DNA of 64,000 nucleotides. It comes from Macrocystis pyrifera (Eukaryota > Sar > Phaeophyceae > Laminariales > Laminariaceae). Below the pieces are notes generated by a model, which saw only the letters and a program-made list of their open reading frames with translations, ran no database searches and had not been told where the DNA came from. A program made the position numbers and the translations under genes. Location of the stretch: contig JASSKH010000001.1 of NCBI GenBank assembly GCA_031763025.1, positions 22,111,142 to 22,175,141 of the forward strand, given 5' to 3'. This document shows positions 20,469 to 63,992 of the stretch, one piece after another. Position 1 is the first letter of the stretch; each line of letters opens with the position of its first letter.

Positions 20469-20660
20469 ATACCTTCTCGGCCTTTTGGCTAAGATCATGT
20501 GTAGTATCTGTTCTAATCAGTGTGAAAACTGATTGACACTCATCGAGTGTCATTTTCACACCTGTTTTTGAAACTGCCGGGTTTAGCGCTGCTTGCAGTG
20601 TTCCGGCTGGATTTCCTCGGCATTTCACTACCGCCTTGTGAGGTCCGTCCCCTCGGGGAC
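20469..20660 (+). ncRNA. U2 spliceosomal RNA, class A copy 1
   Basis: U2 pairs with the intron branch site in the spliceosome. The 192-base sequence begins ATACCTTCTCGGCCTTTTGG with canonical stem-loop I, followed by the invariant branch-site recognition region GTGTAGTATCTG. Stem IIa (AATCAGT/ACTGATT), a IIb hairpin (GACACTC/GAGTGTC), the Sm site (TGTTTTTGA) and a terminal hairpin GTCCCC/GGGGAC are all visible. About 220 bases of upstream sequence are nearly identical to those of the copy at 63801. A long open frame on the opposite strand (CCPRGDGPHKAV) is only the antisense of this RNA. Confidence 0.93.
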
Positions 20661-21164
20661 AACACATCACCAAACAAACACCCTACCAAAACAGCCGTGC
20701 CTGAGCACCACATCACCGCCATCGCATTGTGCTCTCGGTAAAATCCTTCTCCTCGATTTTGCATCACCAATCACCACCACACTATGTACACACTACGTAT
20801 ATATGTTATGTGGTGTCTACTATACGCGTACGTACATACCTGCTGCTGTTCCCGGCGGAGGTACATGGACTCGTCCATATGTATCACTTTGTATTTTGTC
20901 TGAGGTGCAGATAGATGTGCTGCCGTTATCATGTATGTGTATTAGTCTTTGCTTGTTTTTTATTTTTCCCGGTGTCGTCTTCCACTCCAGAGTTGCTATG
21001 GAGCCTGTCCTGCGACCACGGACTGCATTGCATTTTCGCGATGAGTTAATGTGAGAACAACGAACAACCATCGTTTACCGTTGACCCGAGAAACCTCAGA
21101 GCCCTTCGGACCGTACGTGCCCAATGCACCACACCCCTGTATTCAATAGCCTTCTTCACCTTTA

Positions 21165-21621
21165 GAACAGGATGTTTTCGGACTTAAGGATGAAAGATTA
21201 CTTCAGGATGAAACGTAAAAATATAGAAATCGATGAAAAGATACCAAGGAAACATTTTTTTTTGTCTTCCTTTTTTTAGGGTAGGTAAAAGTCACCACAA
21301 AGCACCACCTCGCGAAGTTTTGGTCATACGATCTCGCATCGCCTCTCACCACCGCAAAAAAAAAAAAATCGAATTCTTACCCGCACCGAGAACGGCGGAA
21401 ATAGGTGAAAACCTGTTTGCGACACAGTGAGCGGCGACGCTGGGTCCTAGGACCCCAAAAAAAAACCGTGAGGTGGTGCCTTGTGGCGATATCTACCCAT
21501 CCCAGAAACGAAAAAAAAAAAAAAAGTTGGCTTCCTTGGTATTTTTTTAGAAATTTCCATTTTTTTCGCATTTCATCCTGAAGTAAAATCTTTCATCCTG
21601 AAGTCCGAAAATATCCTGTTT
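21165..21621. mobile_element. Foldback element (about 457 bp)
   Basis: The ends are inverted repeats with AACAGGAT, TTTCGGACTT, GATGAAAGATT and TTCAGGATGAAA on the left mirrored on the right. The similarity continues inward (ACCAAGGAAAC/TTCCTTGGT and CACCACCTCGC/GAGGTGGTGCC), so the whole element could fold into one long imperfect hairpin. No coding capacity. I saw no clear target duplication. Confidence 0.65.
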
Positions 21622-21879
21622 TGGCCTTCCTTTTTCTTCAGCATGTAGCCCGATTTTGCCAAAAATAGCCTTCAGAACTTTCGAAGGATGCGAGTATTAA
21701 GTCTTTTTTCGGTGCTTCACCTGCCGATTTTTCGAAAGTTTGGTCGGGCTCCTTACTGCAAATTTCAATTTATTTAACGATACGCACAAGTCAGTGTTCA
21801 CATACAGCATACGTGTATCATACTTGGCACATGGCAATTCCAGTATTTTTCTACAAAATGCAGTACAGTTTTCTGCCGA

Positions 21880-22440
21880 CTACTCATTCATCACATAGCG
21901 TCCTCTAAAAGATGCATGCCCAGATGCAAGCCCGGTGATGGCATTTTGAATTCGCTCACTGTTACGCTGCCCGCGCACGCGCGTCCTGTGCCCGCCAATA
22001 CCAACGCCTTCGGCTCGCTTCACTGAGCGGGCGTCGTCAGCCGCAAAAATCTTGTAATAGTACAACTTTGAGTAAACCAATACTCCTCCGTTAGATAGTT
22101 ATACACCTATATGCGGATAAATTTCGCCGCCGGACGCCTTTCCGCGCGGTTTCTTCACCGGGGCGAGCCCCAGCCTCGTGTGCATCCGTCGGTGCCACCG
22201 ATCTGCCTGCGCAGCCAGCACGAGTCACGCGTGCGGACAACACGTCGGAATATCGACGAAATACTGCCCTCTCAGCAACCTGGGGGGTGCTATCCCCTCT
22301 CGCGCGCCACAGAAGAGGAGTGCTTTCGTGCGTTGTCTTCGGGTGCGTTCTCTCTGACCGCGAACCCACCCAGAGGCTTCGCCAGCCTACACGGGGCTGA
22401 TCTCGTGGGGGAGGGCTGGGAGCTCGAGATCAATGTATGA
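21880..22440. other. GC-richer island with unassigned open frames
   Basis: A plus-strand frame at 22111-22437 (RINFAAGRLSARFL) and a minus-strand frame at 21880-22080 (IFAADDARSVKRAEGVGIGG) lie in sequence richer in GC than its surroundings. The second vaguely resembles copia-type pol near the protease, but not enough for a call. I regard both as probable transposon remnants. Confidence 0.2.
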
Positions 22441-23481: not shown

Positions 23482-23592
23482 TACCCCACAAGTGGGGTCA
23501 AAAATCGAAAGAACTCCTTCAGGATCCTCTCAGCACGGTTTATCCTAGTAAAAGGCGAGGGTAAAATTCGTGATGCGAGAGGATCGGAGATG
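23482..23592 (-). ncRNA. U5 spliceosomal RNA, copy 1
   Basis: U5 holds the two exons together during both splicing steps. Read on the minus strand, the sequence contains the near-invariant loop I, CGCCTTTTACTA, enclosed by a stem whose lower part is GATCCTCTC paired with GAGAGGATC. An Sm site (ATTTTTGA) and a 3' hairpin ACCCCACTTGTGGGGT follow. Length is about 111, slightly shorter than human U5; the 5' end is set by analogy and could be off by a few bases. From 50 to about 115 bases upstream the sequence is conserved with the second copy at 32637-32747, while the region between is not, which argues for promoter conservation. Confidence 0.87.
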
Positions 23593-23641
23593 CTGATATT
23601 TATACCTGGGGCTTTAACGTATATACCCAATTTAATGTCCC

Positions 23642-23651: not shown

Positions 23652-23803
23652 AGGTTGCGCTAAACCTACATAAACAGGTGACATGGCACACCTTTTGGAT
23701 ACTCAACCTCAAATTATTATGCTCCTGGCACCTGGTGTGCGATATGATAGGTACCACGCTGTCCCTAGACATGGGGACCTTTTTCATTGTATATTATTAT
23801 TAC

Positions 23804-23912
23804 TATTACGGGGGGCCATAGTTAATAGGACCTACGGTACACACAAACACCCATAAATTTACATATTTTTACTAACAATATTTGGTCCTATGTACTATGG
23901 TCCCCCGTAATA
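23804..23912. mobile_element. MITE copy 9
   Basis: Full-length copy, TATTACGGGGGGCC to CCCCCGTAATA, directly before the copia remnant. Confidence 0.8.
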
Positions 23913-23934
23913 CAAAAGGTTTTATTTTTAGGGA

Positions 23935-25070
23935 CAGAGTGGCAGATCTACCACGCGAGAGAGGCATCACGCCTCGCGGGTCGGTAGGTGGACGTGGTTC
24001 CCGTGGTTGACGAGGTTCCACGTCGATACGTGCAGTCACCAGGTCGACTACGAACATCCCCAACGCCAAGACCGTCCGCGAGCTCCGTAGTACCTCATAC
24101 GCATTCAACGCGAAAGGGGAGTTTCCTGACGCCGCCCATAGGGACGGTTCCTTCGGTTTCACGGAATATGCGTATGCTGTGGGGACATCTCAACCGGGTG
24201 TTCCACGGACGATCCAAGAAGCACGGGCCATGCCGGATGGTGCGCAATGGAATGCAGCTGCCGAACGCGAGATAACGAGTCTTAAGGAGCGAAAAGTCTA
24301 CGAGCTCGTCCCGCGCACGGCAGTTCCCCCTGGGAGGAAGCGGATTAAGTCCAAGTGGGTGTTCAAGCATAAGGCAGACGGATCCTTCAAAGGACGTTTA
24401 GTGGCTCAAGGCTGGAACCAAGTGCCTGGACTTGACTGCGGCAGCACCTTCGCTCCGGTGTGCAGGCTACAGAGCGTTCGGCTGGTAGCGTGCGTAGCCA
24501 TGGAATTCAACCTGGATTTGGATCACATGGACGTGTCCACTGCCGACTGCCTTTCTTTACGCAGACATCCAAGGGAAAGTGTTCGTCGAACAGGCACCTG
24601 GATTCGAGGTCAAGAACAAGGATGGAAGTGATCTAGTCATGCAGCTACAGTAGAGAAGAGCCTTTACGGGCTGGCCCAAAACCCCGGGAACTGGTTCCAC
24701 GCCATCGACCCCGTCCTTGTTGAGATCGGTTTCGCTCCACTAAAGTCTGACTCGTGCGTCTACTTGTACAACCACGACGGTGTCCAGATCATCTTGACGC
24801 TCTACGTCGACGACCTTCTTTTAGCCGGCAACGACTCGGACGCCATCTCGATGGTTAAAAGGAAAAAGTGCGCGCGCGGTGACTCTTCGCGTGGTAGATC
24901 TGCGCGGAGAGGCATCACGCCTCGCTGGTCGGCAGGTGGACGTGGTTCCCGTGGAATTCAACCTGGATTTGGATAACATGGACGAGTCCACTGCCTTTCT
25001 TGACGCAGACATCCAAGAGAAGCTGGTCGTCGAACAGGCACCTGGCTTCGAGGCTCAAAACCTATTATGG
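23935..25070 (+). pseudogene. Ty1/copia pol remnant (reverse transcriptase), rearranged
   Basis: From 24179 the plus strand encodes the start of a copia-type reverse transcriptase: EAMP-like EARAMPDGAQWNAA, KSKWVFKHKADG and GRLVAQGWNQVPG, then a frameshift near 24545. After a further break the frame near 24661-24870 gives SLYGLAQNPGNW and the catalytic YVDD (24802-24813). The piece at 24893-25065 repeats two earlier segments fused together: the 23940-24004 region joined to the 24505-24620 region (EFNLDLD..DVSTA / VEQAPGF). RNase H and integrase were not found. The element is non-functional. Confidence 0.8.
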
Positions 25071-25466: not shown

Positions 25467-26380
25467 TTAAACATTTCCATAACACAGAGAACCGACCGTG
25501 CGTCTGTGATCGAAGGTCGTCACCCTAACACGCTGATGTGTGTACCGCTGAGCGGAGCTACGTACTACGTACGTCTGGTATGATAAGCGCTCTTCATACG
25601 CACAGCAACAGCGCCAGCAGCACCTGTGCCGCAGAAAGCCACTCATAGCAGCAGTTGTGCAGCACTCACAAAATATAATGCTTGTGCGTGTCGCGGAGTA
25701 GGCGGAGCTACGATAGCATGAGGCTGTGCAGCGGTGTTTGACCCAAGATCGTATACTTCGTATAGTATAGTATAGTATATGCGATATGTATCGGTACACT
25801 ATAAAGCACCAGTCCACACACAGATGCTTCCAGCACACCAATACTACTTACTACTGTAATACATACGAGAGTACTCCGAGCAGTGGTGTATTGGGAGTAT
25901 CGTGGGTTTTTCGCACTGCGAGATGAAAGTACATGCTGCATGGCATGGAAGCAAGGACAACCAATATGCTGCGAGTACTGGTGAAGCGACCCCGACTACA
26001 GTCAGTAAGTGTCTTCATTCCACAAACATCCGAAATACTTGACGCACTCCGAGTACGAATCGTTTTCAATTCCGATATACTTTTTGAGTGCTCGGAGTAC
26101 AGCAGCGTAGTATGTACGTAGAATATGAACAGTAGTAGTGTCCAACCCTGACATATTGCCAGTATTATCAGTATAACTCCAGTTTCATCCTCCCCACCCC
26201 CCCCTCCGCCGAGAGCAATTAACTCCAACGAGCGATTGAAGTATCGTGCAGCCAGCAGATGAGAGTTTCGACGATTTTTCACCTTGTTTCTATCTCACAC
26301 TTGGCTTTCCTGTATTTTTTCTGCGGAAACCTCTCGTGGATTAATCATCAAAACGGTGACTGATGCTCTCTGTAATCTTT
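25467..26380. other. No gene recognised; AT-rich with short palindromes
   Basis: The stretch contains TATAGTATAGTATA words and a short C run (about 26190-26206). Open frames here have no recognisable motif. Confidence 0.3.
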
Positions 26381-26381
26381 G

Positions 26382-26486
26382 TATTACGGGGGACCATAGT
26401 AAGCAGGACCTACGGTAAACACAAAAACCTATATATTTACCTATTTTTACTAACAATATTTGGTCCTATTTATGACCCCCGTAATA
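26382..26486. mobile_element. MITE copy 10
   Basis: Both ends are intact, with a small deletion before the right terminal repeat (CTATTTATGACCCCCGTAATA). Confidence 0.75.
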
Positions 26487-26741
26487 AAATAGTGCCCCCA
26501 GTGTATATACTCCCAGTAGTCTCGGTTTAACTCCGGTATTTGTATGTATTTCCCCCCGAAAATAGCCGACTATACTCCCCACGTCTGGGATCATCTGTGC
26601 AGGCAGTCGCCCTTATTCTCCGTGGTGTGGGCATTGAGTCAGACCCCCCTCACATACAGTACCAGGTATGCAACAACGCTGCTAACATTTTGTGGGCATG
26701 ACGGGAGACAGCCACCGCCGGTGTGTGGCAACCCAGGCCGC

Positions 26742-27098: not shown

Positions 27099-27418
27099 CC
27101 CCGGTGGCTTGGTAGGTGGTCCGCGTGCCTGTCAAGATCAATTTCGTGGCTTCAAGTCCCACCGAGTGCATGCTCATAGGGACTTTTTCTTGCATAAAAA
27201 ATTAATAAGCGGAAAGCGCGAAAGCGTGAGTTGGCTACATTCGATGAAAATCGACGAGCAGTGGGAATGCTGAACCCTATGCGCGATAAAAACTTAAGGC
27301 ACGTACCGGGGGGGAGAAGGGACGACACCTGTGACCACGGCTTGTCCAGAAGATCGTCGAGGGTAAAACCTCCTACGAGTGGGCTGGGAAGTAAAAGTGA
27401 TGGATAAAAAATAAAATA
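27099..27418 (+). mobile_element. tRNA-derived SINE copy B
   Basis: Full-length copy beginning CCCGGTGGCTTGGTAGGTGG, with the B-box region slightly altered (GGCTTCAAGTCCC), the conserved body, and the tail GATAAAAAATAAAAT followed by a TA microsatellite. Open frames crossing it are not genes. Confidence 0.78.
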
Positions 27419-27529
27419 TATATATATATATGCAAGGTTCCTCTTCGGACGCACGGGGTGACTCAAGGCTTGAGTACAGTACGCATCCAATTACCACCAT
27501 TAGTAACACGAGTCCCCATACAGCGCTAC

Positions 27530-30003: not shown

Positions 30004-30174
30004 ATACTTACCTGGCGGGGGCTTGCCAGTGGTCAATATGACTGGTGACCCCAGGGGGAGCAGGCTCTTGCACTGGGCTAGACCCTGGAGTGCTGTAATC
30101 CCTGGAGAATATTCCTTCGGGGGTATCTCTACCGCATAATTTTTTTCCGGGGAGGTGTCGCTTGCGACCCTCCC
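30004..30174 (+). ncRNA. U1 spliceosomal RNA, copy 1
   Basis: U1 recognises the 5' splice site. The 171-base sequence starts ATACTTACCTGG, the invariant 5' end complementary to splice donors. It continues with stem-loop I (GGGGGCTTGCC), a CCAGGGGGAGC...GCTAGACCCTGG arm, an Sm-type site (GCATAATTTTTTTC) and a 3' hairpin (GGGAGGTGTCGC/GCGACCCTCCC). The flanking sequence from -85 to -1 is conserved with the other two copies. The long frame on the minus strand overlapping it is antisense to the RNA. Confidence 0.92.
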
Positions 30175-30464
30175 AACACATGAACACCAAAATCTCGAAC
30201 AGCACAAAACACACACATCCCCGCCACCGCTCACCCCCCGACACCACATCATCCAACGTAGACATAACATACACGCAAAACATCCAACCAAACGCTCTGT
30301 TGCATAAACCTACCTGTGTATCATGTGCCCGGATGCGTCTCGGCGAAGGACACGAATTCCGAGTCCTCAGTGCGCTCCAGGGCGCTTTTTTCTCGCGACA
30401 CAAGGTGGACCGTATACTCCACTTGCTGCACCACGCTCCCCGATTGTAGAAGAATGTCCGAACA

Positions 30465-30513: not shown

Positions 30514-30562
<49 letters not shown>

Positions 30563-31063: not shown

Positions 31064-31255
31064 ATACCTTCTCGGCCTTTTGGCTAAGATCATGTGTAGT
31101 ATCTGTTCTAATCAGTGTGAAAACTGATTGACACTCATCGAGTGTCATTTTCACACCTGTTTTTGAAACTGCCGGGTTTAGCGCTGCTTGCAGTGTTCCG
31201 GCTGGATTTCCTCGGCATTTCACTACCGCCTTGTGAGGTCCGTCCCCTCGGGGAC
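31064..31255 (+). ncRNA. U2 spliceosomal RNA, class A copy 2
   Basis: The 192 bases appear identical to the copies at 20469 and 63801 throughout stem-loop I, the GTAGTA branch-site region, stems IIa and IIb, the Sm site and the terminal hairpin. Only about 25 bases immediately upstream of the PSE and the PSE itself are shared with the other class A copies; the remaining flanks differ. The RNA body has been kept while the flanks diverged, consistent with selection or gene conversion. Confidence 0.92.
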
Positions 31256-32636: not shown

Positions 32637-32747
32637 TACCCCACAAGTGGGGTCAAAAATCGAAAGAACTCCTTCAGGATCCTCTCAGCACGGTTTATCC
32701 TAGTAAAAGGCGAGGGTAAAATTCGTGATGCGAGAGGATCGGAGATG
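32637..32747 (-). ncRNA. U5 spliceosomal RNA, copy 2
   Basis: The 111-base body matches copy 1 at 23482-23592 without differences that I could see: loop I CGCCTTTTACTA, the GATCCTCTC/GAGAGGATC stem, the Sm site and the ACCCCAC/GTGGGGT hairpin. The sequence immediately 5' (the first 45 bases upstream) is unrelated, while the block further up (GTTTGAGGCTGTGCTAAACC and TGACATGGCACACCTTTT on the plus strand) is again conserved. Confidence 0.87.
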
Positions 32748-37263: not shown

Positions 37264-37321
37264 TATTACGGGGGGCAATAGTAAGTAGGACCAAATACTG
37301 TGAGTAAAAATAAGCAAATAC
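37264..37321. mobile_element. MITE copy 13, left half (split)
   Basis: The left half of a MITE ends abruptly at AAAAATAAGCAAATAC, where a 1.16-kb element begins. The right half resumes at 38482. Confidence 0.75.
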
Positions 37322-38481: not shown

Positions 38482-38532
38482 GTAGGTTTTTGTGTGTGCC
38501 GTAGGCCCTACTTTCTATGGTCCGCCGTAATA
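38482..38532. mobile_element. MITE copy 13, right half
   Basis: GTAGGTTTTTGTGTGTGCCG through TCCGCCGTAATA completes the MITE started at 37264. Confidence 0.75.
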
Positions 38533-44050: not shown

Positions 44051-44059
44051 TATCAATAC

Positions 44060-44715: not shown

Positions 44716-44812
44716 TGCCCCAAGGGGCATCAGAAATTGGTGGCAACCGTTAGGTTATCCACACGGGATTGGAGTAGTTTTCAACTAGCAATCACCACGC
44801 ATCAGCAAAGCT
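44716..44812 (-). ncRNA. U4-like RNA, probably a truncated copy
   Basis: On the minus strand the sequence starts AGCTTTGC as U4 does, contains GATTGCTAGTTGAAAACT, very close to the U4 segment that pairs with U6 in stem I, then an Sm-like site (AATTTCTGA) and a terminal hairpin TGCCCCTTGGGGCA. The 5' stem-loop with its kink-turn, normally about 30 bases between the first two motifs, is absent, and total length is 97 against about 145. It is likely a pseudogene, but the other U4 landmarks are in the correct order. Confidence 0.45.
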
Positions 44813-45217
44813 TCACGCACAATGGTATTGCCCGAGGAGCAAAGATACCTCACAGGCACATCTCTGGTTGGGCACCTTTACAACGATGTACCTTCAGCAG
44901 TTGTTTTGCACTGCGCAAACACAACATAATTTGCCGCACAACATGTATTATTTCGATTTGTTTTTGCTCGTCCTTATTTTATTGTTTGATACTCGTTTGT
45001 ACTCAAGTATTAATAGTGGTGGTGATGGTGTCCAAATGACTCTTCACCGCTATATGCCGGTTTCGGTGTGCCGCGCGAGGAACCCGCTCTATCGTGATCA
45101 ATCCGCACTAATTTCAACACAACATTTCCCTCACTAACTTCAAGATGTTTTTTTTTCCACACTAAAATCAAGATATTGGTTTTCAAAAAGTCGAAAGAAA
45201 GTAAAAATATCTATATT

Positions 45218-48050: not shown

Positions 48051-48222
48051 ATACTTACCTGGCGGGGGCTTGCCAGTGGTCAATATGACTGGTGACCCCA
48101 GGGGGAGCAGGCTCTTGCACTGGGCTCGACCCTGGAGTGCTGTAATCCCTGGAGAATATTCCTTCGGGGGTATCTCTACCGCATAGTTTTTTTTCCGGGG
48201 AGGTGTCGCTTGAGACCCTCCC
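48051..48222 (+). ncRNA. U1 spliceosomal RNA, copy 3
   Basis: This copy is more diverged than the other two: GCTCGACCCTGG for GCTAGACCCTGG, GCATAGTTTTTTTT for GCATAATTTTTTT at the Sm-type site, and TTGAGACC for TTGCGACC in the 3' hairpin. The 5' end ATACTTACCTGG and the conserved upstream block (AAAGCAGTGGGTGAGCCGCA at -60) remain. It could be a variant gene or an early pseudogene. Confidence 0.85.
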
Positions 48223-48526
48223 AAATCCTCAAACAAACACCCACACAACCTAGAACTATTATCACCAATCACCAAACACACGAACGACAACAGAGTATAG
48301 CACGGGTTATTGTTGTTGTATGCTCACATTATCTCTTGAGAAAAAAAAAAAACCGTGGTCACACAAACGTGCCAGAGCCCTACCGTAGGAAGGTCCGAGA
48401 AACAAAACAAATGTTACGCCATTGAGAAGGAGGAATGTTAACATCAATACGTAGCCGTTGACTGAATGCGTAATGCGCTGGTGCGGTGGTGGTGCTCGGC
48501 GCTGAGCTGTTTGGTTGGTGTTTGTT

Positions 48527-48703
48527 GTCCCCGAGGGGACGTACCTCACAAGGCGGTAATGGAATACCAAGAAAATCCAGCCGGAACACCGCAAGCAGCG
48601 CTAAACCGGACAAATTCAAAAACAGGTGTGAAAATGTCAATCAGTTTTCACACTGATTAGAACAGATACTACACATGATCTTAGCCGTAGGCTGAGAAGG
48701 TAT
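48527..48703 (-). ncRNA. U2 spliceosomal RNA, class B copy 1, lacks stem IIb
   Basis: This copy has the class B stem-loop I with one more change (minus strand CTTCTCAGCCTACGGC) and the branch-site region GTAGTATCTG. It lacks 15 bases that form the IIb hairpin, making it 177 instead of 192 bases. Its upstream element reads ATATTTCCGGCTG and lies at -54 rather than -60. All three defects suggest a pseudogene. It belongs to an outlying unit interrupted by a minisatellite element and a SINE. Confidence 0.75.
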
Positions 48704-48824: not shown

Positions 48825-49702
48825 GGCTTTTCGCGGGTCATGACCCGACCCGCGGGTCGGGTCACGGGGTGTTCAAAATGTCACGGGTCGGGTCAGGTCG
48901 GGTCAGGAAGTATTCAAACTCTCACGGGTCGGGTCGGGTCGGGTCGGGTCAAGAGGCATTCTAATCTCACGGGTCGGGTCGGGTCGGGTCAAAAGTTTTT
49001 CAAATCTCACGGGTCGGGTCGGGTCGGGTCAAGAGGTGATGAAAAGCTCACGGGTCGGGTCGGGTCATGACCCGTGAGAAACGGGTCACTCGCGGGTCAG
49101 GCCACCGTGACCCGCGAGTTCTTTTCTGCTGACCCGCGGGTCGGACCCGCGCATCCGGCCCGCGGATCCGACACTCAAAGCACTTCCCGCTCTCTTACCC
49201 AAAGGCTTTTCTCGTACAAGTACCCAATAATACTCCTTTGGTATCTTATTCAAGCATTAAAACACTGCCAAATCCATATACGCATGCCCGCATCCATTGA
49301 TACCCACTACAGCCAGGCCACATAGTGCTTGTGGGCACAAAAATGCATATTAAATTGTTTTTGAAGAGTCGACCCACGGGCCGGATCCGCAGGTCGGACC
49401 TGCCGGTCAAGATAAATAGTCTCGCGGGTCAAGGTGACCCGACCCGCATGAAACCCGTGTCTCACGGGTCAATCTGAAGGTGACGGGTCGGGTCGGGTCG
49501 GGTCAGGAGGTTTTGAAATCTCGCGGGTCGGGTCGGGTCGGGTCAGGATATTTTCATATCTCACGGGTCGGATCGGGTCGGGTCGACAACTTTTTTAATC
49601 TCGAGGGTCGGGTCGGGTCGGGTCAAGAGGATTTCAAAATATCGCGGGTCGGGTTGAGTCAGGACCCGACCCGTGAGATTGGACCTGACCCGCGAAAAGC
49701 CA
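48825..49702. repeat. GGGTC minisatellite bounded by inverted repeats
   Basis: GGCTTTTCGCGGGTCATGAC at the left is mirrored by GACCCGCGAAAAGCC at the right. Inside are two arrays (48850-49085 and 49480-49700) of 40-50 base units, each CTCACGGGTCGGGTCGGGTC plus a variable AT-rich spacer such as AAGAGGCATTCTAA. The whole element sits in a U2-containing unit at the point where other units have only a T run. It is probably a foldback-type DNA element with an expanded interior. Confidence 0.7.
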
Positions 49703-49892
49703 TGTTTCTTTGCCCATTTATTATCTTCGCCCTTCTTGCTCGTGCTGCCGGGACAACATAATAATATATTTCCGGGGATTTCTTCTTTCAGGAATTTTTG
49801 AGTGATCAACGTTCAAGATCATGCTACATATTGTCGGATGGCAAGCATAATCAATTATAATATGCACAAGTGTTGAATGGAGGTAAGGTGTC

Positions 49893-50204
49893 CCCGGTGA
49901 CTTGGTAGGTGTGGTCCGCGAGCCTATCAAGATCAATTTCGTGAGTTCGAGTCTCACCGAGTGCATGCTCGTAGGGACTTTTTCTTGCTTAAAATTGATT
50001 ATCGGAAAGCGCGAGAGCGTGATTTAGCTGTACATTCGATGAAAATCGACGAGCAGTGGGAATGCTGAACCCTTTGCGCGATAAAAACTAAAGGCACGTA
50101 CCAGGGGGGGGAAGGGACGACACCTGTGACCACGGCTTGTCCAGAAGATCGCTGAGGGTAAATCCTCCTACGAATTAGACTGGAAAGTAATAGTGATAAA
50201 AAAA
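49893..50204 (+). mobile_element. tRNA-derived SINE copy D, with empty site in sister units
   Basis: The full-length SINE is flanked by AAGGTGTC at 49885-49892 and 50205-50212. The sister U2 units contain the uninterrupted GGAGGCAAGGTGTCTTATCA, which is the pre-insertion site. This defines the element as about 312 bp with an 8-bp target duplication. A-box-like and B-box-like (GAGTTCGAGTC at 49943-49953) motifs lie in the first 65 bases. Confidence 0.85.
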
Positions 50205-51779
50205 AGGTGTCTTATCACACCTCACAAATAATAGCAGAGAGAGAAAGAGAGCTCCGCCCGCTCAAACTCCTATGGTACTACTGGTTTCACGTACGAAAAA
50301 CAAAACCTAGTCAAGATCATGGATCCGCAGGATATATATCTTTGAGGCCGCCATCTACATTCAGTGGCCCTGCCCGACACGAAGCGGATTGAGCGTGGGC
50401 TAGTTCTATGTCGAGATCGAAGGTCTACCGTCGCGTATGAGCTGCTGCATGTTTTCTGTGCTAGTTCGCGGGGTGATTTCGACACCATGTAGAAAATGTT
50501 ATTCACCGAATTGGTGTCGTTCGGCTCACATGGCATGGCACGGGGGGGGGGGGTGGGGCTTGGCCCAAGCGGCGCGTCTCTGTGTCAGCTACCCCTGCTC
50601 GTGGCCGCACCGTCGATCAAACGCCCGGCTGACTCTTGCACTTCGTGCCCGAGTCATTGCGTGCTTGGCGTGCACTCAACAAAGCAAAGCTGCTCGAAAA
50701 AAATGAAAGCAATGAACGGGCGTTTCGAAAGTGTATTGCGTTATAACACAGGATTTTGCTTCAACTTTAGTTAGTTAGTTTGATGTTTGCGCTACATATA
50801 ACACAGGATTTTGCGGAGTATTGCCGAGGTACGAGAAAATTTATGTTTTGTACGTACGGGAGAAATTGACCAATCAGATCAACACGGGTTGTTGTACCCG
50901 TATAGTCTAGAAGTAAGTGCACCTGGGCCCAGCTCTGCTGTAGCAGTTGACTCCCGACCGAGAGGACGCAGCGAGGCAGGGTCGTCAAAACAAGTCCCAG
51001 GTGTGGAAAAGACTGGTTTAGCTTCCTGGTGTATAGCTTTAGACTGGTGGGAGCTGCTGTCTTCTTCGCTGATCGGTTAGCTTGCTTCGATTTTGAGCCA
51101 GGCAGCATCAGCGCCACGTACTACGTAAGTTGTGGTATTGAATGCTGGGTCGACGGAAATTCAGCGAGCCAGACGTTCGGCATATATACTTTGTTGGATT
51201 GTTTGCGACGATTTTTTTGGATTGTTTCTTGATACTCGCGGGAGAGCCAAAGAGACAGATACACTCCCAGGAATAGTACGATGACAGGCCCACTATAATA
51301 CTGTATGTACCAGGTACACCAAACAACCCAAAACGCCTTGCCCAAGATAACTCCTTCTCCCTCATATACGTCACCCATTAATTTTGTTTGCTGGGGTGGG
51401 AGAATGGTGAACACGTATATATGGCATGTGACCACGTGACCACGGCTTGTTCAGAAGATCGTCGAGGGTATAGACAATTCTTACGTACTTGCTTGTTGCG
51501 ATTTAAACACGCGAATTTAGCTGAAAAGCAAACATGATGTATACTCCCTGACACGGCAGCACCAACTAACTGTGTTGATAATATTGGGTGTTTGGGTGTC
51601 ATCGGTCGTGAACGAGACCAAGGGGGGCTGATTGAATTGCTCGTGGTTTTTACGATATGTATACTTGATCATTCTGATACTATACGTGTAGCTTTGAGGC
51701 AGCAGGATCCGGTGAAGTAGTGCTCGGGATGAGGTCCGGTGTGTTGAGTGTTGGGGTGTTTGGTTGGTGTTGTTGTGTT

Positions 51780-51971
51780 GTCCCCGAGGGGACGGACCTT
51801 ACAAGGCGTTAATGGAATGCCAAGAAAATCCAGCCGGAACACTGCAAGCAGCGCTAAAACCCGACAAATTCAAAAACAGGTGTGAAAATGACACTCCATG
51901 AGTGCCAATCAGTTCTCACACTGATTAGAACAGATACTACACATGATCTTAGCCGTAGGCCGAGAAGGTAT
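51780..51971 (-). ncRNA. U2 spliceosomal RNA, class B copy 2 (array unit 1)
   Basis: All main U2 parts are present: branch-site region GTAGTATCTG, stem IIa with one loop change, stem IIb with a G-U replacing an A-U pair (GGCACTC/GAGTGTC), Sm site TGTTTTTGA and terminal hairpin. Stem-loop I is altered, CTCGGCCTACGGCTAAG in place of class A CTCGGCCTTTTGGCTAAG, so it keeps the pairing but shrinks the loop from four to three bases. The length is the same 192 as class A because of an extra T later. The PSE lies at 52019-52031, 60 bases upstream. Confidence 0.88.
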
Positions 51972-52018
51972 GATTTATGAGCGACTAAGGTGTCATTACT
52001 GTATAGCCTCTAGGCTGT

Positions 52019-52031
52019 CAGCCGGAGATAT
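52019..52031 (-). promoter_or_regulatory. snRNA proximal sequence element of U2 (class B)
   Basis: ATATCTCCGGCTG on the minus strand at -60. Identical elements lie before the other array copies at 53693-53705, 55365-55377, 57031-57043 and 62976-62988. Confidence 0.65.
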
Positions 52032-53453
52032 TAGCTGCACGTACTCGCCAGATCAGGGCCGTATGCTGGCGTATGCTTGACATCTTTTTTTTTTTTGCCC
52101 TTCTTGCTCGTGCTCCCTCTGTCTGTGTAATTTCTTGCCACTCGTACTGCAGTTAGTTGCGCGCTGTCGGGACAGCATAATAATATATTTCCGGGGCTTT
52201 CTTCTTTCAGGAATTTTTTGAGCGATCAACGTTCAACTTCGTGCTACACATTGCAGATTGTCGGATGGCAAGCATAATCATAATATGCACAAGTGTTGGA
52301 ATGGAGGCAAGGTGTCTTATCACTCCTCACAAATAATAGCAGAGAGTGAAAGAGAGCTCCACCCGCTCAAACTCCTATGGTACTATTAATACTATTAATA
52401 GTTTCACGCACGAAAAATAAAACCTAGTCAAGATCACGGATCCGCAGGATATATATCGTCGAGGCCGCCATCTACATTCAGTGGCCCTGCCCGACACGAA
52501 GCGGATTGAGCGTGTTTTGTACGTACGGGAGAAATTGACCAATCAGATCAACACGGGTTGTTGTACCCGTATAGTCTAGAAGTAAGTGCACCTGGGCCCA
52601 GCTCTGCTGTAGCAGTTGACTCCCGACCGAGAGGACGCAGCGAGGCAGGGTCGTCAAAACAAGTCCCAGGTGTGGAAAAGACTGGTTTAGCTTCCTGGTG
52701 TATAGCTTTAGACTGGTGGGAGCTGCTGTCTTCTTCGCTGATCGGTTAGCTTGCTTCGATTTTGAGCCAGGCAGCATCAGCGCCACGTACTACGTAAGTT
52801 GTGGTATTGAATGCTGGGTCGACGGAAATTCAGCGAGCCAGACGTTCGGCATATATACTTTGTTGGATTGTTTGCGACGATTTTTTTGGATTGTTTCTTG
52901 ATACTCGCGGGAGAGCCAAAGAGACAGATACACTCCCAGGAATAGTACGATGACAGGCCCACTATAATACTGTATGTACCAGGTACACCAAACAACCCAA
53001 AACGCCTTGCCCAAGATAACTCCTTCTCCCTCATATACGTCACCCATTAATTTTGTTTGCTGGGGTGGGAGAATGGTGAACACGTATATATGGCATGTGA
53101 CCACGTGACCACGGCTTGTTCAGAAGATCGTCGAGGGTATAGACAATTCTTACGTACTTGCTTGTTGCGATTTAAACACGCGAATTTAGCTGAAAAGCAA
53201 ACATGATGAATACTCCCTGACACGGCAGCACCAACTAACTACTGTGTTGATAATATTGGGTGTTTGGGTGTCATCGGTCGTGAACGAGACCAAGGGGGGC
53301 TGATTGAATTGCTCGTGGTTTTTACGATATATGTATACTTGATCATTCTGATACTATACGTGTAGCTTTGAGGCAGCAGGATCCGGTGAAGTAGTGCTCG
53401 GGATGAGGTCCGGTGTGTTGAGTGTTGGGGTGTTTGGTTGGTGTTGTTGTGTT

Positions 53454-53645
53454 GTCCCCGAGGGGACGGACCTTACAAGGCGGTAATGGAATGCCAAGAA
53501 AATCCAGCCGGAACACTGCAAGCAGCGCTAAAACCCGACAAATTCAAAAACAGGTGTGAAAATGACACTCCATGAGTGCCAATCAGTTCTCACACTGATT
53601 AGAACAGATACTACACATGATCTTAGCCGTAGGCCGAGAAGGTAT
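53454..53645 (-). ncRNA. U2 spliceosomal RNA, class B copy 3 (array unit 2)
   Basis: Same as array unit 1 except that near the 3' end it has AAGGCGGTAATGG on the plus strand where the others have AAGGCGTTAATGG. That is the class A state at this base and hints at gene conversion or an ancestral base. The PSE is at 53693-53705. Confidence 0.88.
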
Positions 53646-55125
53646 GATTTATGAGCGACCAAGGTGTCATTACTGTATAGCCTCTAGGCTGTCAGCCGGA
53701 GATATTAGCTGCACGTACTCGCCAGATCAGGGCCGTATGCTGGCGTATGCTTGACATCTTTTTTTTTTGCCCTTCTTGCTCGTGCTCCCTCTGTCTGTGT
53801 AATTTCTTGCCACTCGTACTGCAGTTAGTTGCGTGCTGTCGGGACAGCATAATGATATATTTCCGGGGCTTTCTTCTTTCAGGAATTTTTTGAGCGATCA
53901 ACGTTCAACTTCGTGCTACACATTGCAGATTGTCGGATGGCAAGCATAATCATAATATGCACAAGTGTTGGAATGGAGGCAAGGTGTCTTATCACTCCTC
54001 ACAAATAATAGCAGAGAGTGAAAGAGAGCTCCACCCGCTCAAACTCCTATGGTACTATTAATACTATTAATAGTTTCACGTACGAAAAATAAAACCTAGT
54101 CAAGATCACGGATCCGCAGGATATATATCGTCGAGGCCGCCATCTACATTCAGTGGCCCTGCCCGACACGAAGCGGATTGAGCGTGTTTTGTACGTACGG
54201 GAGAAATTGACCAATCAGATCAACACGGGTTGTTGTACCCGTATAGTCTAGAAGTAAGTGCACCTGGGCCCAGCTCTGCTGTAGCAGTTGACTCCCGACC
54301 GAGAGGACGCAGCGAGGCAGGGTCGTCAAAACAAGTCCCAGGTGTGGAAAAGACTGGTTTAGCTTCCTGGTGTATAGCTTTAGACTGGTGGGAGCTGCTG
54401 TCTTCTTCGCTGATCGGTTAGCTTGCTTCGATTTTGAGCCAGGCAGCATCAGCGCCACGTACTACGTAAGTTGTGGTATTGAATGCTGGGTCGACGGAAA
54501 TTCAGCGAGCCAGAAGTTCGGCATATATACTTTGTTGGATTGTTTGCGACGATTTTTTTGGATTGTTTTTTGATACTCGCGGGGGAGCCAAAGAGACAGA
54601 TACACTCCCAGGAATAGTACGATGACAGGCCCACTATAATACTGTATGTACCAGGTACACCAAACAACCCAAAACGCCTTGCCCAAGATAACTCCTTCTC
54701 CCTCATATACGTCACCCATTAATTTTGTTTGCTGGGGTGGGAGAATGGTGAACACGTATATATGGCATGTGACCACGTGACCACGGCTTGTTCAGAAGAT
54801 CGTCGAGGGTATAGACAATTCTTACGCACTTGCTTGTTGCGATTTAAACACGCGAATTTAGCTGAAAAGCAAACATGATGAATACTCCCTGACACGGCAG
54901 CACCAACTAACTACTGTGTTGATAATATTGGGTGTTTGGGTGTCATCGGTCGTGAACGAGACCAAGGGGGGCTGATTGAACTGCTCGTGGTTTTTACGAT
55001 ATATGTATACTTGATCATTCTGATACTATACGTGTAGCTTTGAGGCAGCAGGATCCGGTGAAGTAGTGCTCGGGATGAGGTCCGGTGTGTTGAGTGTTGG
55101 GGTGTTTGGTTGGTGTTGTTGTGTT

Positions 55126-55317
55126 GTCCCCGAGGGGACGGACCTTACAAGGCGTTAATGGAATGCCAAGAAAATCCAGCCGGAACACTGCAAGCAGCGC
55201 TAAAACCCGACAAATTCAAAAACAGGTGTGAAAATGACACTCCATGAGTGCCAATCAGTTCTCACACTGATTAGAACAGATACTACACATGATCTTAGCC
55301 GTAGGCCGAGAAGGTAT
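55126..55317 (-). ncRNA. U2 spliceosomal RNA, class B copy 4 (array unit 3)
   Basis: No difference from array unit 1 was seen in the 192-base body. The PSE is at 55365-55377. Confidence 0.88.
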
Positions 55318-56791
55318 GATTTATGAGCGACCAAGGTGTCATTACAGTATAGCCTCTAGGCTGTCAGCCGGAGATATTAGCTGCACGTACTCGCCAGATC
55401 AGGGCCGTATGCTGGCGTATGCTTGACATCTTTTTTTTTTGCCCTTCTTGCTCGTGCTCCCTCTGTCTGTGTAATTTCTTGCCACTCGTACTGCAGTTAG
55501 TTGCGCGCTGTCGGGACAGCATAATAATATATTTCCGGGGCTTTCTTCTTTCAGGAATTTTTTGAGCGATCAACGTTCAACTTCGCGCTACACATTGCAG
55601 ATTGTCGGATGGCAAGCATAATCATAATATGCACAAGTGTTGGAATGGAGGCAAGGTGTCTTATCACTCCTCACAAATAATAGCAGAGAGTGAAAGAGAG
55701 CTCCACCCGCTCAAACTCCTATGGTACTATTAATACTATTAATAGTTTCACGTACGAAAAATAAAACCTAGTCAAGATCACGGATCCGCAGGATATATAT
55801 CGTCGAGGCCGCCATCTACATTCAGTGGCCCTGCCCGACACGAAGCGGATTGAGCGTGTTTTGTACGTACGGGAGAAATTGACCAATCAGATCAACACGG
55901 GTTGTTGTACCCGTATAGTCTAGAAGTAAGTGCACCCGGGCCCAGCTCTGCTGTAGCAGTTGACTCCCGACCGAGAGGACGCAGCGAGGCAGGGTCGTCA
56001 AAACAAGTCCCAGGTGTGGAAAAGACTGGTTTAGCTTCCTGGTGTAGCTTTAGACTGGTGGGAGCTGCTGTCTTCTTCGCTGATCGGTTAGCTTGCTTCG
56101 ATTTTGAGCCAGGCAGCATCAGCGCCACGTACTACGTAAGTTGTGGTATTGAATGCTGGGTCGACGGAAATTCAGCGAGCCAGACGTTCGGCATATATAC
56201 TTTGTTGGATTGTTTGCGACGATTTTTTTGGATTGTTTCTTGATACTCGCGGGAGAGCCAAAGAGACAGATACACTCCCAGGAATAGTACGATGACAGGC
56301 CCACTATAATACTGTATGTACCAGGTACACCAAACAACCCAAAACGCCTTGCCCAAGATAACTCCTTCTCCCTCATATACGTCACCCATTAATTTTGTTT
56401 GCTGGGGTGGGAGAATGGTGAACACGTATATATGGCATGTGACCACGTGACCACGGCTTGTTCAGAAGATCGTCGAGGGTATAGACAATTCTTACGCACT
56501 TGCTTGTTGCGATTTAAACACGCGAATTTAGCTGAAAAGCAAACATGATGAATACTCCCTGACACGGCAGCACCAACTAACTACTGTGTTGATAATATTG
56601 GGTGTTTGGGTGTCATCGGTCGTGAACGAGACCAAGGGGCTGATTGAATTGCTCGTGTTTTTTACGATATGTATACTTGATCATTCTGATACTATACGTG
56701 TAGCTTTGAGGCAGCAGGATCCGGTGAAGTAGTGCTCGGGATGAGGTCCGGTGTGTTGAGTGTTGGGGTGTTTGGTTGGTGTTGTTGTGTT

Positions 56792-56983
56792 GTCCCCGAG
56801 GGGACGGACCTTACAAGGCGTTAATGGAATGCCAAGAAAATCCAGCCGGAACACTGCAAGCAGCGCTAAAACCCGACAAATTCAAAAACAGGTGTGAAAA
56901 TGACACTCCATGAGTGCCAATCAGTTCTCACACTGATTAGAACAGATACTACACATGATCTTAGCCGTAGGCCGAGAAGGTAT
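56792..56983 (-). ncRNA. U2 spliceosomal RNA, class B copy 5 (array unit 4)
   Basis: No difference from array unit 1 was seen in the 192-base body. The PSE is at 57031-57043. It is the last unit before the array is interrupted by the gypsy-containing insertion. Confidence 0.88.
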
Positions 56984-57954
56984 GATTTATGAGCGACCAA
57001 GGTGTCATTACTGTATAGCCTCTAGGCTGTCAGCCGGAGATATTAGCTGCACGTACTCGCCAGATCAGGGCCGTATGCTGGCGTATGCTTGACATCTTTT
57101 TTTTTTTTGCCCTTCTTGCTCGTGCTCCCTCTGTCTGTGTAATTTCTTGCCACTCGCACTGCAGTTAGTTGCGTGCTGTCGGGACAGCATAATGATATAT
57201 TTCCGGGGCTTTCTTCTTTCAGGAATTTTTTGAGCGATCAACGTTCAACTTCGTGCTACACATTGCAGATTGTCGGATGGCAAGCATAATCATAATATGC
57301 ACAAGTGTTGGAATGGAGGCAAGGTGTCTTATCACTCCTCACAAATAATAGCAGAGAGTGAAAGAGAGCTCCACCCGCTCAAACTCCTATGGTACTATTA
57401 ATACTATTAATAGTTTCACGTACGAAAAATAAAACCTAGTCAAGATCACGGATCCGCAGGATATATATCGTCGAGGCCGTCATCTACATTCAGTGGCCCT
57501 GCCCGACACGAAGCGGATTGAGCGTGGGTTAATTCTATGTCGAGATCGAAGGTCTACCATCGCGTATGAGCTGCTGCATGTTTTCTGTGCTAGTTCGCGG
57601 AGTGATTTCGACACCATGTAGAAAATGTTACTCACCGAATTCGTGTCGTTCGGCTCACATGATGGCATGGCACGGGCGGGGGGTGGGGCTTGGCCCAAGC
57701 GGCTCTGTGATGTGTGCGTGGGAGAGCAGTAAGGGTTCCACGGGATGATGATCCACAGAAGAAGTGTGACACAGGTGTCTGTGCTTGGTCAAACTCAGAC
57801 CTAGTTCTTTTTGGAGTTCTCTTGTTTTATTGGTGCAAGGCTTGCTCAAAAGGGGCAAGTGAGAAGAGTGAGGAGAGAGGGGGGGGGGGGTGAGCACATG
57901 CTTTTTGAAGCCAGGAGTATCCTCTGGCTTCAACCGGCTATATTCTACTGGCAA

Positions 57955-58265: not shown

Positions 58266-58269
58266 CTAA

Positions 58270-60360: not shown

Positions 60361-60649
60361 GATGGGTGCGTTGCGTCGGTCTCTGTGTCAGCTACCCCTG
60401 CTCGTGGCCGCACCGTCGATCTAACGTCCCTCTGCACTTTTTTCCTGAGTCATTGCGTGCTAGGCATGCACGAAAAAAAACAAAGCGGCTCGAAAAAAAT
60501 GAAAGCAATGAACGGGGGTTTCGAAAGTGTATTGCGTTATAACACAGGACTTTGCTTCAACTTTAGTTAGTTAGTTAGATGTTTGCGTTACGTATAACAC
60601 AGGATTTTGCGGAGTATCATCGAGATACGAGAAAATATGTGTTTTGTAC

Positions 60650-61811
60650 AAGGCACTTCGCTCCGCGGGCGGCCTACGCCACCCGCTACGCTCGCTCAGG
60701 AAGGAAACATAAAATTATGCGAGGCGGACAGAGGTCCATCATTGAATATTGTTTTTTTTTTTTTGCCCCTGTAGTTAGCTGCAAACTGGCGACTTGATAA
60801 TGCCAAGAGTCTCGCCGCCATGCTTCAGGAGAAAACAGCTCGGACGCCACATATGCTTCGCGTCGTGGGCGATTTTCCGCTACGCTCGCTCACACGTCGT
60901 ACATACGTACATACCCCAGGGAGGGTACTTATTTTCTTCTTTCGATATGCTCTGTGTCTGAGTACTCGTCGTGATGTACGAAAGATAAAGCACAGAACAG
61001 CACTGCAACACAGCAAAAACAACGAAAATGAAACCGAAAAATTCTAAAAGAAAAAAATCCCCGTCCCCTTTCGTGTAATAATTTACTACCTGAGTGGAAC
61101 ACCTTACACCAGTCAAAAAAAAAAAAAAATGAAAAAAAGAAAAATCTTACAGCAGAGCTTCTCTCTCAGCCTCGTACGCCGGCCGCCCCTCTCGCGACTA
61201 TCTCGCCACCGATTCAGTCCGGGTAAAGCTTCGCTCCCTCTCTTCCACAGTGAGCCCCGCCGCCCGCCTCGCGTGAAGCCCGGTGCTCACCGTGGACCTC
61301 GACGCAAGCTCGACAATGTTGGTGCTCATTCGGGGTACCTCCCTCTTGTGACTCTCAGCCCGGTCGCAAAAATAAGCACCGCTTGAATATTATCTTACAA
61401 TCCCGAATGACCCTTAAATACTCGTACGTACTATATCCAAAATCACGAATGGAGGCCAGACAGAGCCTATTGATGCATCCCTCGTGTCTCGAGGCACACG
61501 CGACGCCTAGGCACGAAAGCGGCGACCGCGCTCCTTGCAACTCCCCCTCTACTCGCCAGCATCCGCTGATACCCGCGACGGTGCCGGGTTCGCCCGCGCA
61601 ACCGTGCTCGGAGTACACGCACGCACACGAAACGAAAGAAGAAAAAAGGAAAGAAGGACTGAAAGTACGACGAGAAATGGAGAAAACAAAGACTCGCTGG
61701 AACGGTCCGGCAAGTAATAAACGGAGGCGATTCCCAAGTGGGAGCTCTGAGAGGTCAGGGATGTACCAACCGAGCACGCTCAGAGATCGAGAACTAAGTA
61801 AGTATATCTAT
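60650..61811. mobile_element. 1.16-kb element of unknown type, copy 2 (inside a U2 unit)
   Basis: About 97 percent identical by eye to 37322-38481. Here it splits GTTTTGTAC from GTACGAGAGAAATTGACC, which are contiguous in the tandem U2 units (GTTTTGTACGTACGGGAG). The two independent insertion contexts define the element ends to within a few bases. Confidence 0.7.
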
Positions 61812-63447
61812 GTACGAGAGAAATTGACCAATCAGATCAACACGGGTTGTTGTACCCGTATAGTCTAGACGCGCACCTGCGCCCAGCTCTACTGTAGCAG
61901 TTGACTCGCGACCGAGAGGACGCAGCGAGGCAGGGTCGTCGAGGCAGGTCCAAGGTATGGTAAATACGGTTTAGCTTCCTGGTGTTGTAGCTTTAGACTG
62001 GTGGGAGCTGCTGTCTTCTTCACTCATCGGTTAGCTTGCTTCGATTTAGAGTCAGGCAGCATCAGCGCCACGTACTACGTAGGTTGTGGTATTAAATGCT
62101 GGGTCGACGGAAATTCAGCGAGCCAGACGTTCGGCATATATACTTTGTTGGATTGTTGTTTGCGACGATTTTGTTGGATTGTTTTTTGCCACTCGCGGGA
62201 GAGCCGAAGAGATAGATACACTCCCAGGAATAGAGTACGATGACAGGCCCACTATAATACTGTATGTACCAGGTACACCAAACAACCCAAAACGCCTTGC
62301 CCAAGATAACTCCTTCTCCCTCTTATACGCCACCCATTAATTTTGTTTGCTGGGATGGGAGAATGGTGGACATATATATGGCATGTGACCACGTGACCAC
62401 GGCTTGTTCAGAAGATCGTCGAGGGTATAGACAATTCTTACGTACTTACTTGTTGCGATTTAAACACGCGAATTTAGCTGAAAAGCAAACATGATGAATA
62501 CTCCCTGACACGGCAGCACCAACTAACTGTGTTGATAATATTGGGTGGGTTTGAGTGTCATCGGTCGTGAACGAGACCAAGGGGCTGATTGAATTGCTCG
62601 TGTTTTTTACGATATGTATACTTGATCATTCTGATACTGTACGTGTAGCTTTGAGGCAGCAGGATCCGGTGAAGTAGTGCTCGGGATGAGGTCCGGTGAG
62701 TTGAGTGTTGGGGTGTTTGGTTGGTGTTGTTTTGCTGTCCCCGAGGGGACGGACCTTACAAGGCGTTAATGGAATACCAAGAAAATCCAGCCGGAACACT
62801 GCAAGCAGCGCTAAAACCCGACAAATTCAAAAACAGGTGTGAAAATGACACTCCATGAGTGCCAATCAGTTCTCACACTGATTAGAACAGATACTACACA
62901 TGATCTTAGCCGTAAGCCGAGAAGGTATGATTTATAAGCGACTAAGGTGTCATTACTGTATAGCCTCTAGGCTGTCAGCCGGAGATATTAGCTGCACGTA
63001 CTCGCCAGATCAGGGCCGTATGCTGGCGTATGCTTGACATCTTTTTTTTTTTGCCCTTCTTGCTCGTGCTCCCTCTGTCTGTGTAATTTCTTGCCACTCG
63101 TACTGCAGTTAGTTGCGTGCTGTCGGGACAGCATAATAATATATTTCCGGGGCTTTCTTCTTTCAGGAATTTTTTGAGCGATCAACGTTCAACTTCGTGC
63201 TACACATTGCAGATTGTCGGATGGCAAGCGTGATCATAATATGCACAAGTGTTGGAATGGAGGCAAGGTGTCTTATCACTCCTCACAAATAATAGCAGAG
63301 AGAGAAAGAGAGCTCCGCCCGCTCAAACTCCTTAGGGCACGAAAAACAAAACCTAGTCAAGATCACGGATCCGCAGGATATATATCGTCGAGGCCGCCAT
63401 CTACATTCATTGGCCCTGCCCGACACGAAGCGGATTGAGCGTGGGTT
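61812..63447. repeat. Diverged fifth U2-containing unit
   Basis: The unit starts GTACGAGAGAAATTGACC and follows the same order as the 1.67-kb array units with several per cent divergence and small indels, ending near GGATTGAGCGTGGGTTAATT. It contains U2 class B copy 6. Confidence 0.85.
62737..62928 (-). ncRNA. U2 spliceosomal RNA, class B copy 6
   Basis: The 192-base body matches the array copies except for a further change in stem-loop I (CTTCTCGGCTTACGGC on the minus strand, turning a G-C into a G-U pair) and GAATACC for GAATGCC on the plus strand. The PSE lies at 62976-62988, 60 bases upstream. The surrounding unit is more diverged than the RNA. Confidence 0.87.
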
Positions 63448-63740
63448 AATTCTATGTCGAGATCGAAGGTCTACCGTCGCGTATGTATGAGCTGCCGCAT
63501 GTTTTCTGTGCTAGTTCGCGGGGTGATTTCGACACCATGTAGAAAATGTTATTCACCGAATTCGTGTCGTTCGGCTCACATTGCTGTAGCTCGTGACACC
63601 TTGCTCCACAATTGTAGGGTGGTTTCGTGCTCGTGGAGCAAAAGCAACTATTAATACCGTCGTACCCAGCTGGAATCTGGTATATTTTACATTTGAGGAC
63701 AAAGCGTGTCATCGATTTAAAACGGTGTTCCGCGCACTCC

Positions 63741-63753
63741 ATATCTCCGGCTG
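63741..63753 (+). promoter_or_regulatory. snRNA proximal sequence element of U2 (class A copy 3)
   Basis: ATATCTCCGGCTG begins 60 bases before the U2 start, within an upstream region nearly identical to 20250-20468. Confidence 0.65.
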
Positions 63754-63800
63754 CTGGACTCTAGGGTATATATTTGGGACACAATGTCGTGGTAGAAAGC

Positions 63801-63992
63801 ATACCTTCTCGGCCTTTTGGCTAAGATCATGTGTAGTATCTGTTCTAATCAGTGTGAAAACTGATTGACACTCATCGAGTGTCATTTTCACACCTGTTTT
63901 TGAAACTGCCGGGTTTAGCGCTGCTTGCAGTGTTCCGGCTGGATTTCCTCGGCATTTCACTACCGCCTTGTGAGGTCCGTCCCCTCGGGGAC
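63801..63992 (+). ncRNA. U2 spliceosomal RNA, class A copy 3
   Basis: Complete 192-base U2 at the right edge of the window, identical as far as I can see to the copy at 20469. Upstream similarity to that copy extends to about 63587 (GTAGCTCGTGACACCTTGCT), where it joins the end of the class B unit region. It is on the plus strand, pointing away from class B copy 6. Confidence 0.92.

Follow-up and report, generated by a model that had tools for sequence, protein, structure and literature searches.

We have analysed a 64-kb stretch of the genome of the giant kelp Macrocystis pyrifera (assembly GCA_031763025.1, contig JASSKH010000001.1, here C189, positions 22111142–22175141), which carries a cluster of genes for the spliceosomal small nuclear RNAs (snRNAs) U1, U2, U4 and U5. 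The whole stretch is referred to as the window and is numbered from its first letter. Scanning with cmscan at the Rfam gathering cut-offs (46 bits for U2, 69.5 for U1, 40 for U5 and 46 for U4) gave 15 full-model matches: nine U2 (105.5–144 bits), three U1 (83.8–94.5 bits), two U5 (66 bits each) and one U4 (85.5 bits). A preliminary description of the same letters had placed three U1, nine U2 and two U5 genes here, and the Infernal/Rfam check finds each of them full-length and over its cut-off. The motifs it named are present in the bodies, namely ACTTACCTG at the 5' end of all three U1, GTAGTA in U2, the CGCCTTTTACTA loop in both U5 and GCTAGTTGAAAACT in U4. Its "U4-like" copy is certainly there, but the qualifier can be dropped, as the match runs over the whole U4 model. 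Chance as the source of the matches was rejected on the covariance-model E-values and on the random-placement result given below.

The first part of the cluster is mixed in type and in strand. U2a (20469–20653, + strand; RF00004, 144 bits) is followed by U5a (23483–23591, − strand; RF00020, 66 bits), U1a (30004–30176, +; RF00003, 94.5 bits), U2b (31064–31248, +; 144 bits), whose body is that of U2a, U5b (32638–32746, −; 66 bits), with the body of U5a, U1b (40298–40469, +; 88 bits), the U4 gene (44717–44846, −; RF00015, 85.5 bits), U1c (48051–48224, +; 83.8 bits) and U2c (48534–48703, −; 105.5 bits). Five U2 genes of a second class, B, come next, all on the − strand: U2d (51787–51971, 126.5 bits), U2e (53461–53645, 128 bits), U2f (55133–55317, 126.5 bits), U2g (56799–56983, 126.5 bits) and U2h (62744–62928, 122 bits). 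The last gene, U2i (63801–63985, +; 144 bits), is again of class A, like U2a and U2b. Just past the Rfam U2 end, the letters CGGGGACA (20654–20661, + strand, in U2a) complete an extra terminal hairpin, GTCCCC-TC-GGGGAC, that is invariant in all eight aligned U2 genes.

Other searches added little. A permissive cmscan to an E-value of 5 gave six extra weak matches, none to an snRNA, and together with the scan at gathering scores this bears out the first description, in which no U6 was found. No tRNA was found in it by ARAGORN with bacterial settings, and a search for U12 gave no matches, as did its own control. Exact U2 patterns had no match in the viral_contigs set; in genome_contigs a longer exact pattern had none and a looser one found three stray pieces in bacterial metagenome-assembled genomes, which entered a single comparison as incidental rows.

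The preliminary description ended the cluster at 63992, but it continues for about 32.5 kb past the window. We scanned ~69 kb on either side (C189 is 26.5 Mb long), continuing the window numbering beyond its right end for positions called window-equivalent. After the gene at 63801 the order is U5− U1+ U2+ U5− U1+ U4− U1+ U2− U2−, the last ending at 96552, so that the whole cluster comprises 24 genes (12 U2, 6 U1, 4 U5 and 2 U4) in 76 kb. The window holds only part of it because a block of ~31 kb is repeated, with most of the second copy lying beyond the window: 20250–51123 recurs with gaps at window-equivalent 63584–95688 in pieces that are 95.7–99.1% identical (20250–20833 matches 63584–64165 at 97.6%), and U2i is the first gene of the second copy. 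No Rfam match at gathering score was found in the ~69-kb left flank or in the rightmost 36 kb fetched, and no U6 reached that score in the 140 kb of neighbouring loci retrieved. The U2 body at window-equivalent 75725–75912 has three extra T in the T-run of the Sm site and is otherwise of class A.

Misassembly is a classic risk with near-identical repeats, and both the repeated block and the array described below could be artefacts of that kind. We regard this as highly improbable. The published assembly is described as derived from a single haploid gametophyte with ~100× PacBio coverage and a mean read of 15.8 kb (PMC10498591), which exceeds the 6.7 kb of the array. The difference between the two blocks is ~1–4% and each has segments of its own, the joined 133 kb contains no N, and other scaffolds show the same gene order.

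Although all nine U2 genes of the window match the model, as first described, U2c is probably a pseudogene, since stem-loop IIb is missing from it and from its duplicate at window-equivalent 93111, its promoter is degenerate and the duplicate has changes in the branch-site region. The two classes differ in loop I (TTTT in class A, TAC in class B), and their bodies are ~9% different. Four class B genes, U2d to U2g, sit one each in tandem units of ~1.67 kb (50844–57526) that are ~99% identical on self-comparison, and U2h lies in a fifth, diverged unit ~94% identical to the others. The array bodies differ from U2h at 2–3 of 185 bases, and the rest of the unit at 50–56 of ~1440. The U2 at window-equivalent 96368 (− strand), in the second block, combines a class A body with a class B-like 3' flank; its promoter is class A-like (−70 to −31, 82% identical to U2a against 68% to U2d). 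This mixed make-up is a sign of recombination between copies.

It is conceivable, if rather doubtful, that class B is a functional isoform with a use of its own and not merely an amplified, drifting copy. There are five copies, their branch-site and Sm regions are unchanged, and one stem IV pair differs from that of class A at both of its bases. Against this, the promoter element is weaker, a loop IV base is changed in four of the five copies and the body is not significantly constrained relative to the spacer. Moreover, no class B gene was found in the second block apart from the decayed duplicate of U2c, and the apparently equivalent locus there has a class A body.

The gene bodies are more alike than their flanks. 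U2a and U2b are identical over the 185 bases of the body, 70.7% identical in the promoter and 46.9% identical in the distal upstream region, where random pairs average 47.6%. U5a and U5b are likewise identical over 109 bases, with 69% identity in the promoter and 61%, above random, in the distal flanks. The U1 bodies of the window are 96.6–98.8% identical. In the C189 cluster as a whole, all four U5 bodies are the same, as are both U4; four of the 12 U2 share one body and three another, and two of the six U1 are identical. Between the two block copies, the bodies of eight gene pairs (the ninth, decayed U2c, being left out of the sums) have four substitutions and three indels in 1241 columns, compared with 23 substitutions and 17 indels in 1512 columns downstream (Fisher p = 0.0014). 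The promoters have 21 substitutions and two indels in 641 columns, and the regions further upstream 86 substitutions and 56 indels in 1858, with 78 of the 86 in three poorly aligning pairs.

The genes also have a promoter-like element in common. The upstream element at fixed distance of the preliminary description proved real: a 14-mer, approximately GYGC, five bases and AAAC (in U2, ATATC), begins at −69 or −70 in U1, U2, U4 and U5, including U2a, U5a and U1a at −69. With one gene per type it scores 19.8 bits, a value reached in none of 200 dinucleotide-shuffled sets (maximum 18.4); over six search settings (three gene sets at two widths), five gave 0/200 and one, with width 10 and five genes, 1/200. 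In U2a the element, which resembles a proximal or upstream sequence element (PSE or USE), lies at 20400–20415 on the + strand, with a TATA-like GGTATAT following at −36. The corresponding stretch near −36 is TATAT in U2a and U5, GATATT in U1 and U2b, CTATA in class B and TGTAAA in U4. A matrix trained on the window genes puts 14 of the 15 among them at the window's top 14 sites, all at −68 to −70; U2c has a score of 9.4 at −63. When each type was held out of training and −120 to −16 searched, the best site fell at −68 to −70 in U1 (3/3), class A U2 (3/3), U4 (1/1) and U5 (2/2). Outside the C189 cluster 24 genes over the cut-off are known, of which 17 could be tested (16 grouped or paired and one solitary); in 15 of the 17 the window-trained matrix places its top site between −68 and −71. 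Of the grouped or paired genes, 14 of 15 have it at −68 to −70, and the U4 gene on contig C191 at −71. These tests are not fully independent because the genes are paralogues.

Downstream, at least 76% of the next 50 bases are A or C in 13 of 14 genes, where the 95% level of the window is 66%; the exception is U5a (62%). The fifteenth gene runs off the window, and for U2 the count began 16 bases beyond the Rfam end.

In plants and animals, snRNA genes of RNA polymerase II (Pol II) type are distinguished from the Pol III-type U6 gene. Across eight of the 17 kelp U6 loci the best element scores are 0.6–6.2, all under the 95% background level (8.1). T-runs lie downstream of the eight U6 genes inspected. 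A promoter common to U6 and the other snRNAs was rejected, since the element stands out in none of the eight. A common element at fixed distance that does not stand out at these U6 loci, unconfirmed for class B when U2 is held out, fits transcription of the cluster genes by Pol II and of U6 by Pol III, on the model of plants and animals.

The genome-wide search covered 537,376,219 bases in 223 contigs, and the snRNA gene counts from it are lower bounds. Genes over the cut-off, that is, above the Rfam gathering score, number 23 of 25 matches for U2, 13 of 14 for U1, nine of nine for U5, three of three for U4 and 16 of 17 for U6. A neighbour of another type lies within 25 kb of all 13 U1, 16 of the 23 U2, eight of the nine U5 and all three U4, 40 of 48 in total. 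The third U4, on C191 and 2.6 kb from a U1, was added after the placement test, in which 39 of 47 genes (U4 then 2/2) were linked, whereas 1000 random placements averaged 0.14 linked genes and never exceeded four of 47. All 16 U6 genes are more than 25 kb from any U1, U2, U4 or U5, the nearest on a shared contig being 8.56 Mb away; this agrees with the lack of U6 in the cluster, noted from the start.

Besides the 24 genes in 76 kb on C189, there are groups on C191 (U2+ U5− U1+ U2+ U1+ U4−, 41 kb), on C206 (read in reverse, U2+ U5− U1+ U1+ U1+ U1+, plus a U1 piece below the cut-off) and on C214 (U5− U1+ plus U2-like pieces below the cut-off), and a U2 and U5 pair on the same strand at 25.2 Mb on C189. 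U1, U2 and U5 genes thus occur at other loci as well, and U4 at one further place only, on C191; two of the three U4 genes found are in the C189 cluster, and all three bodies are identical. Both C189 blocks, C191 and C206 have the order U2+ U5− U1+, as does C214 with only a fragment of U2. Apart from dispersed repeats, the likeness of these groups to the C189 cluster is mostly confined, among the matches listed, to gene plus promoter (~110–410 bp; 20 kb of C206, 30 of the 41 kb of C191 and about 3 kb of the others were compared), for which reason the copies on other scaffolds look old. By eye, the U2 of the 25.2-Mb pair (C189:25199846) has GACGCTC/GAGCGTC in stem-loop IIb in place of the class A letters GACACTC/GAGTGTC, so that one pair is altered at both of its bases.

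We consider it very probable that the cluster consists of Pol II-type genes for U1, U2, U4 and U5, each with its own promoter, spread by duplication of a module. The genes, their order and number, the position of the promoter element and the lower divergence of bodies than of flanks are observed directly. Each gene would be its own transcription unit, with the PSE/USE-like element near −69, the TATA-like stretch near −36 and an RNA body that ends in a hairpin; the A/C-rich tract occupies the place expected of a 3'-end signal. An ancestral module U2+ U5− U1+ would have been copied to several scaffolds and followed, on C189 and C191, by U2+, U1+ and U4−; on C189 there would also have been a tandem duplication of the module and an amplification of one U2. 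Selection and recombination between copies could keep the bodies alike while the spacers drift, with U6, as a Pol III-type gene, kept apart. Clustering may persist by drift, or because it helps the sharing of factors or homogenization. Transcription of the genes, the identity of the polymerase and a role of clustering in shared expression or homogenization are inferred from this anatomy. A link of Cajal bodies to genome conformation and to the assembly of snRNPs (small nuclear ribonucleoproteins) has been described (PMC4802181).

Several observations weigh against this interpretation. With all U2 sites held out, none of the five class B genes has its best site near −69, and their bodies are not significantly more conserved than the spacer (p = 0.06–0.27). 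Outside the cluster, the U2 at 25.2 Mb on C189 is without an element near −69, and three well-placed sites score 4.6, 5.0 and 7.8, below the 95% background level. Between block copies the promoters show no more conservation than the sequence around them (3.3% substitutions, and 1.5% downstream), which speaks against strong constraint over the whole promoter, and just one of 63 predicted U2 pairs is changed on both sides. Random placement is a weak control because the genes are paralogues. Finally, seven U2 and one U5 are solitary, and the one examined, on C211, is without the −69 element.

This last gene bears on the possibility that most copies are dead, as retro-pseudogenes or decayed genes, and that a few dispersed genes make the RNA. 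In the solitary U2 at C211:3331983 the body is identical, a PSE-like element is absent and a run of some ten A follows CGGGGACA; a search for target duplications of six or more bases found none. It is probably a retro-copy, which indicates that retro-copies probably exist, and if so its RNA ended at about CGGGGACA. U2c and its duplicate have decayed, and the other seven solitary copies, which may be working dispersed genes, remain as possible sources. Set against these, the element lies near −69 in 14 of the 15 window genes (the training set), as it does in 15 of the 16 genes belonging to other clusters or pairs; flanks have diverged more than bodies; and every U1 and U4 found over the cut-off is clustered (the counts being lower bounds), so that no dispersed source for these two was found. 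On element placement, body conservation and clustered U1 and U4, we rejected this explanation, and give it very little credence. Dada transposons, which are reported to be able to target snRNA genes (PMC3706591), were also considered; the window bodies are full-length over the Rfam models, and no search was aimed at Dada.

The individually promoted Pol II-type cluster might be taken further, to the proposal that brown algae have nearly all their working Pol II-type snRNA genes in a small number of loci that mix types, share one gene order and form one unit of expression and homogenization, and that class B is expressed as an isoform, such as one belonging to a single life stage. We think this improbable.

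The window contains further repeats. A dispersed element of ~312–330 bp occurs at 49885–50211 and at about 18274–18589, 27100–27422 and 39781–40112. The copy at about 49893 breaks a remnant of a class B unit, ends in an A-run and has an 8-bp flanking repeat, AAGGTGTC, and so resembles a short interspersed nuclear element (SINE). At the U6-like copy on C198, the T-run is followed, by eye, by letters like the start of this element (CCCCGGTGGCTTGGTAGGT), and the copy is perhaps a chimeric retro-copy. CGGGT-rich arrays of ~40-bp units (48853–49066 and 49484–49654) lie inside a decayed class B unit. A 1.17-kb repeat, 95% alike, is found at 37319–38484 and 60647–61814 and also by U1 genes on C191 and C214. 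A short repeat (107–118 bp, both orientations, ~61–90% alike) has 11 copies in the window, at 101–207, 7669–7775, 8510–8616, 14201–14318, 16366–16472, 17087–17193, 17656–17762, 18177–18294, 23799–23916, 26377–26494 and 44055–44172. The + strand has a fragment of a Copia-type reverse transcriptase at 24011–24631 (Pfam RVT_2, E = 1e-18) and, at 18659–19183, a probable exon of a coiled-coil protein with three unnamed relatives (57–72% identical in a protein search) and no Pfam family over its cut-off.

These results give a genome-wide view of the layout of splicing RNA genes in a multicellular lineage outside animals and plants. They provide a candidate brown-algal snRNA promoter element, and a defined promoter could help in building tools for kelp. 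The identical bodies with diverged flanks, the recombinant U2 and the amplified U2 variant are material for the study of homogenization in multicopy RNA genes. Judged by titles and the beginnings of abstracts, the brown-algal and Ectocarpus literature within our scope, outside which most subscription papers fall, gives no account of snRNA gene organization, and the terms "snRNA" and "non-coding RNA" do not occur in the main text of the giant kelp genome paper (PMC10498591). Reports of U2-derived small RNAs and a 226-nucleotide U2 region in the diatom Phaeodactylum (PMC4247016) and of a missing U1 in Amoebophrya (PMC7789003) were not used as evidence.

Mixed snRNA clusters are already known elsewhere, and a description this full is rare. 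The cluster was first called unusual for mixing types on both strands; the mixing is confirmed, and the adjective is fair, yet there are precedents in Symbiodinium minutum and Arabidopsis. European hake has U1 and U2 at one chromosomal place (as given in PMC4696792) and Euglena a U3–U5 linkage (as given in PMC2784804); animal U1/U2 clusters and the Euglena linkage resemble the kelp in having repeated genes, sometimes two types together, whereas the four interleaved types and recurring order of the kelp set it apart from these systems as they are described. Arabidopsis, with seven U1–U4 pairs and one U2–U5 pair (according to PMC545797), shares small mixed groups, a promoter of USE plus TATA and U2 beside U5, its USE being likened to the kelp element by type and not by sequence. 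Its pairs are compact, however (180–300 nucleotides between U1 and U4 and less than 200 between U2 and U5), compared with up to 24 genes of four types in 76 kb. In Symbiodinium minutum, according to a review (PMC4083563), all five snRNAs occur in a cluster and others are scattered over ~70 places. Both genomes have several snRNA types in one cluster and more genes elsewhere, but in the kelp U6 is left out, all 16 genes over the cut-off lying elsewhere, and the gene order is repeated on several scaffolds.

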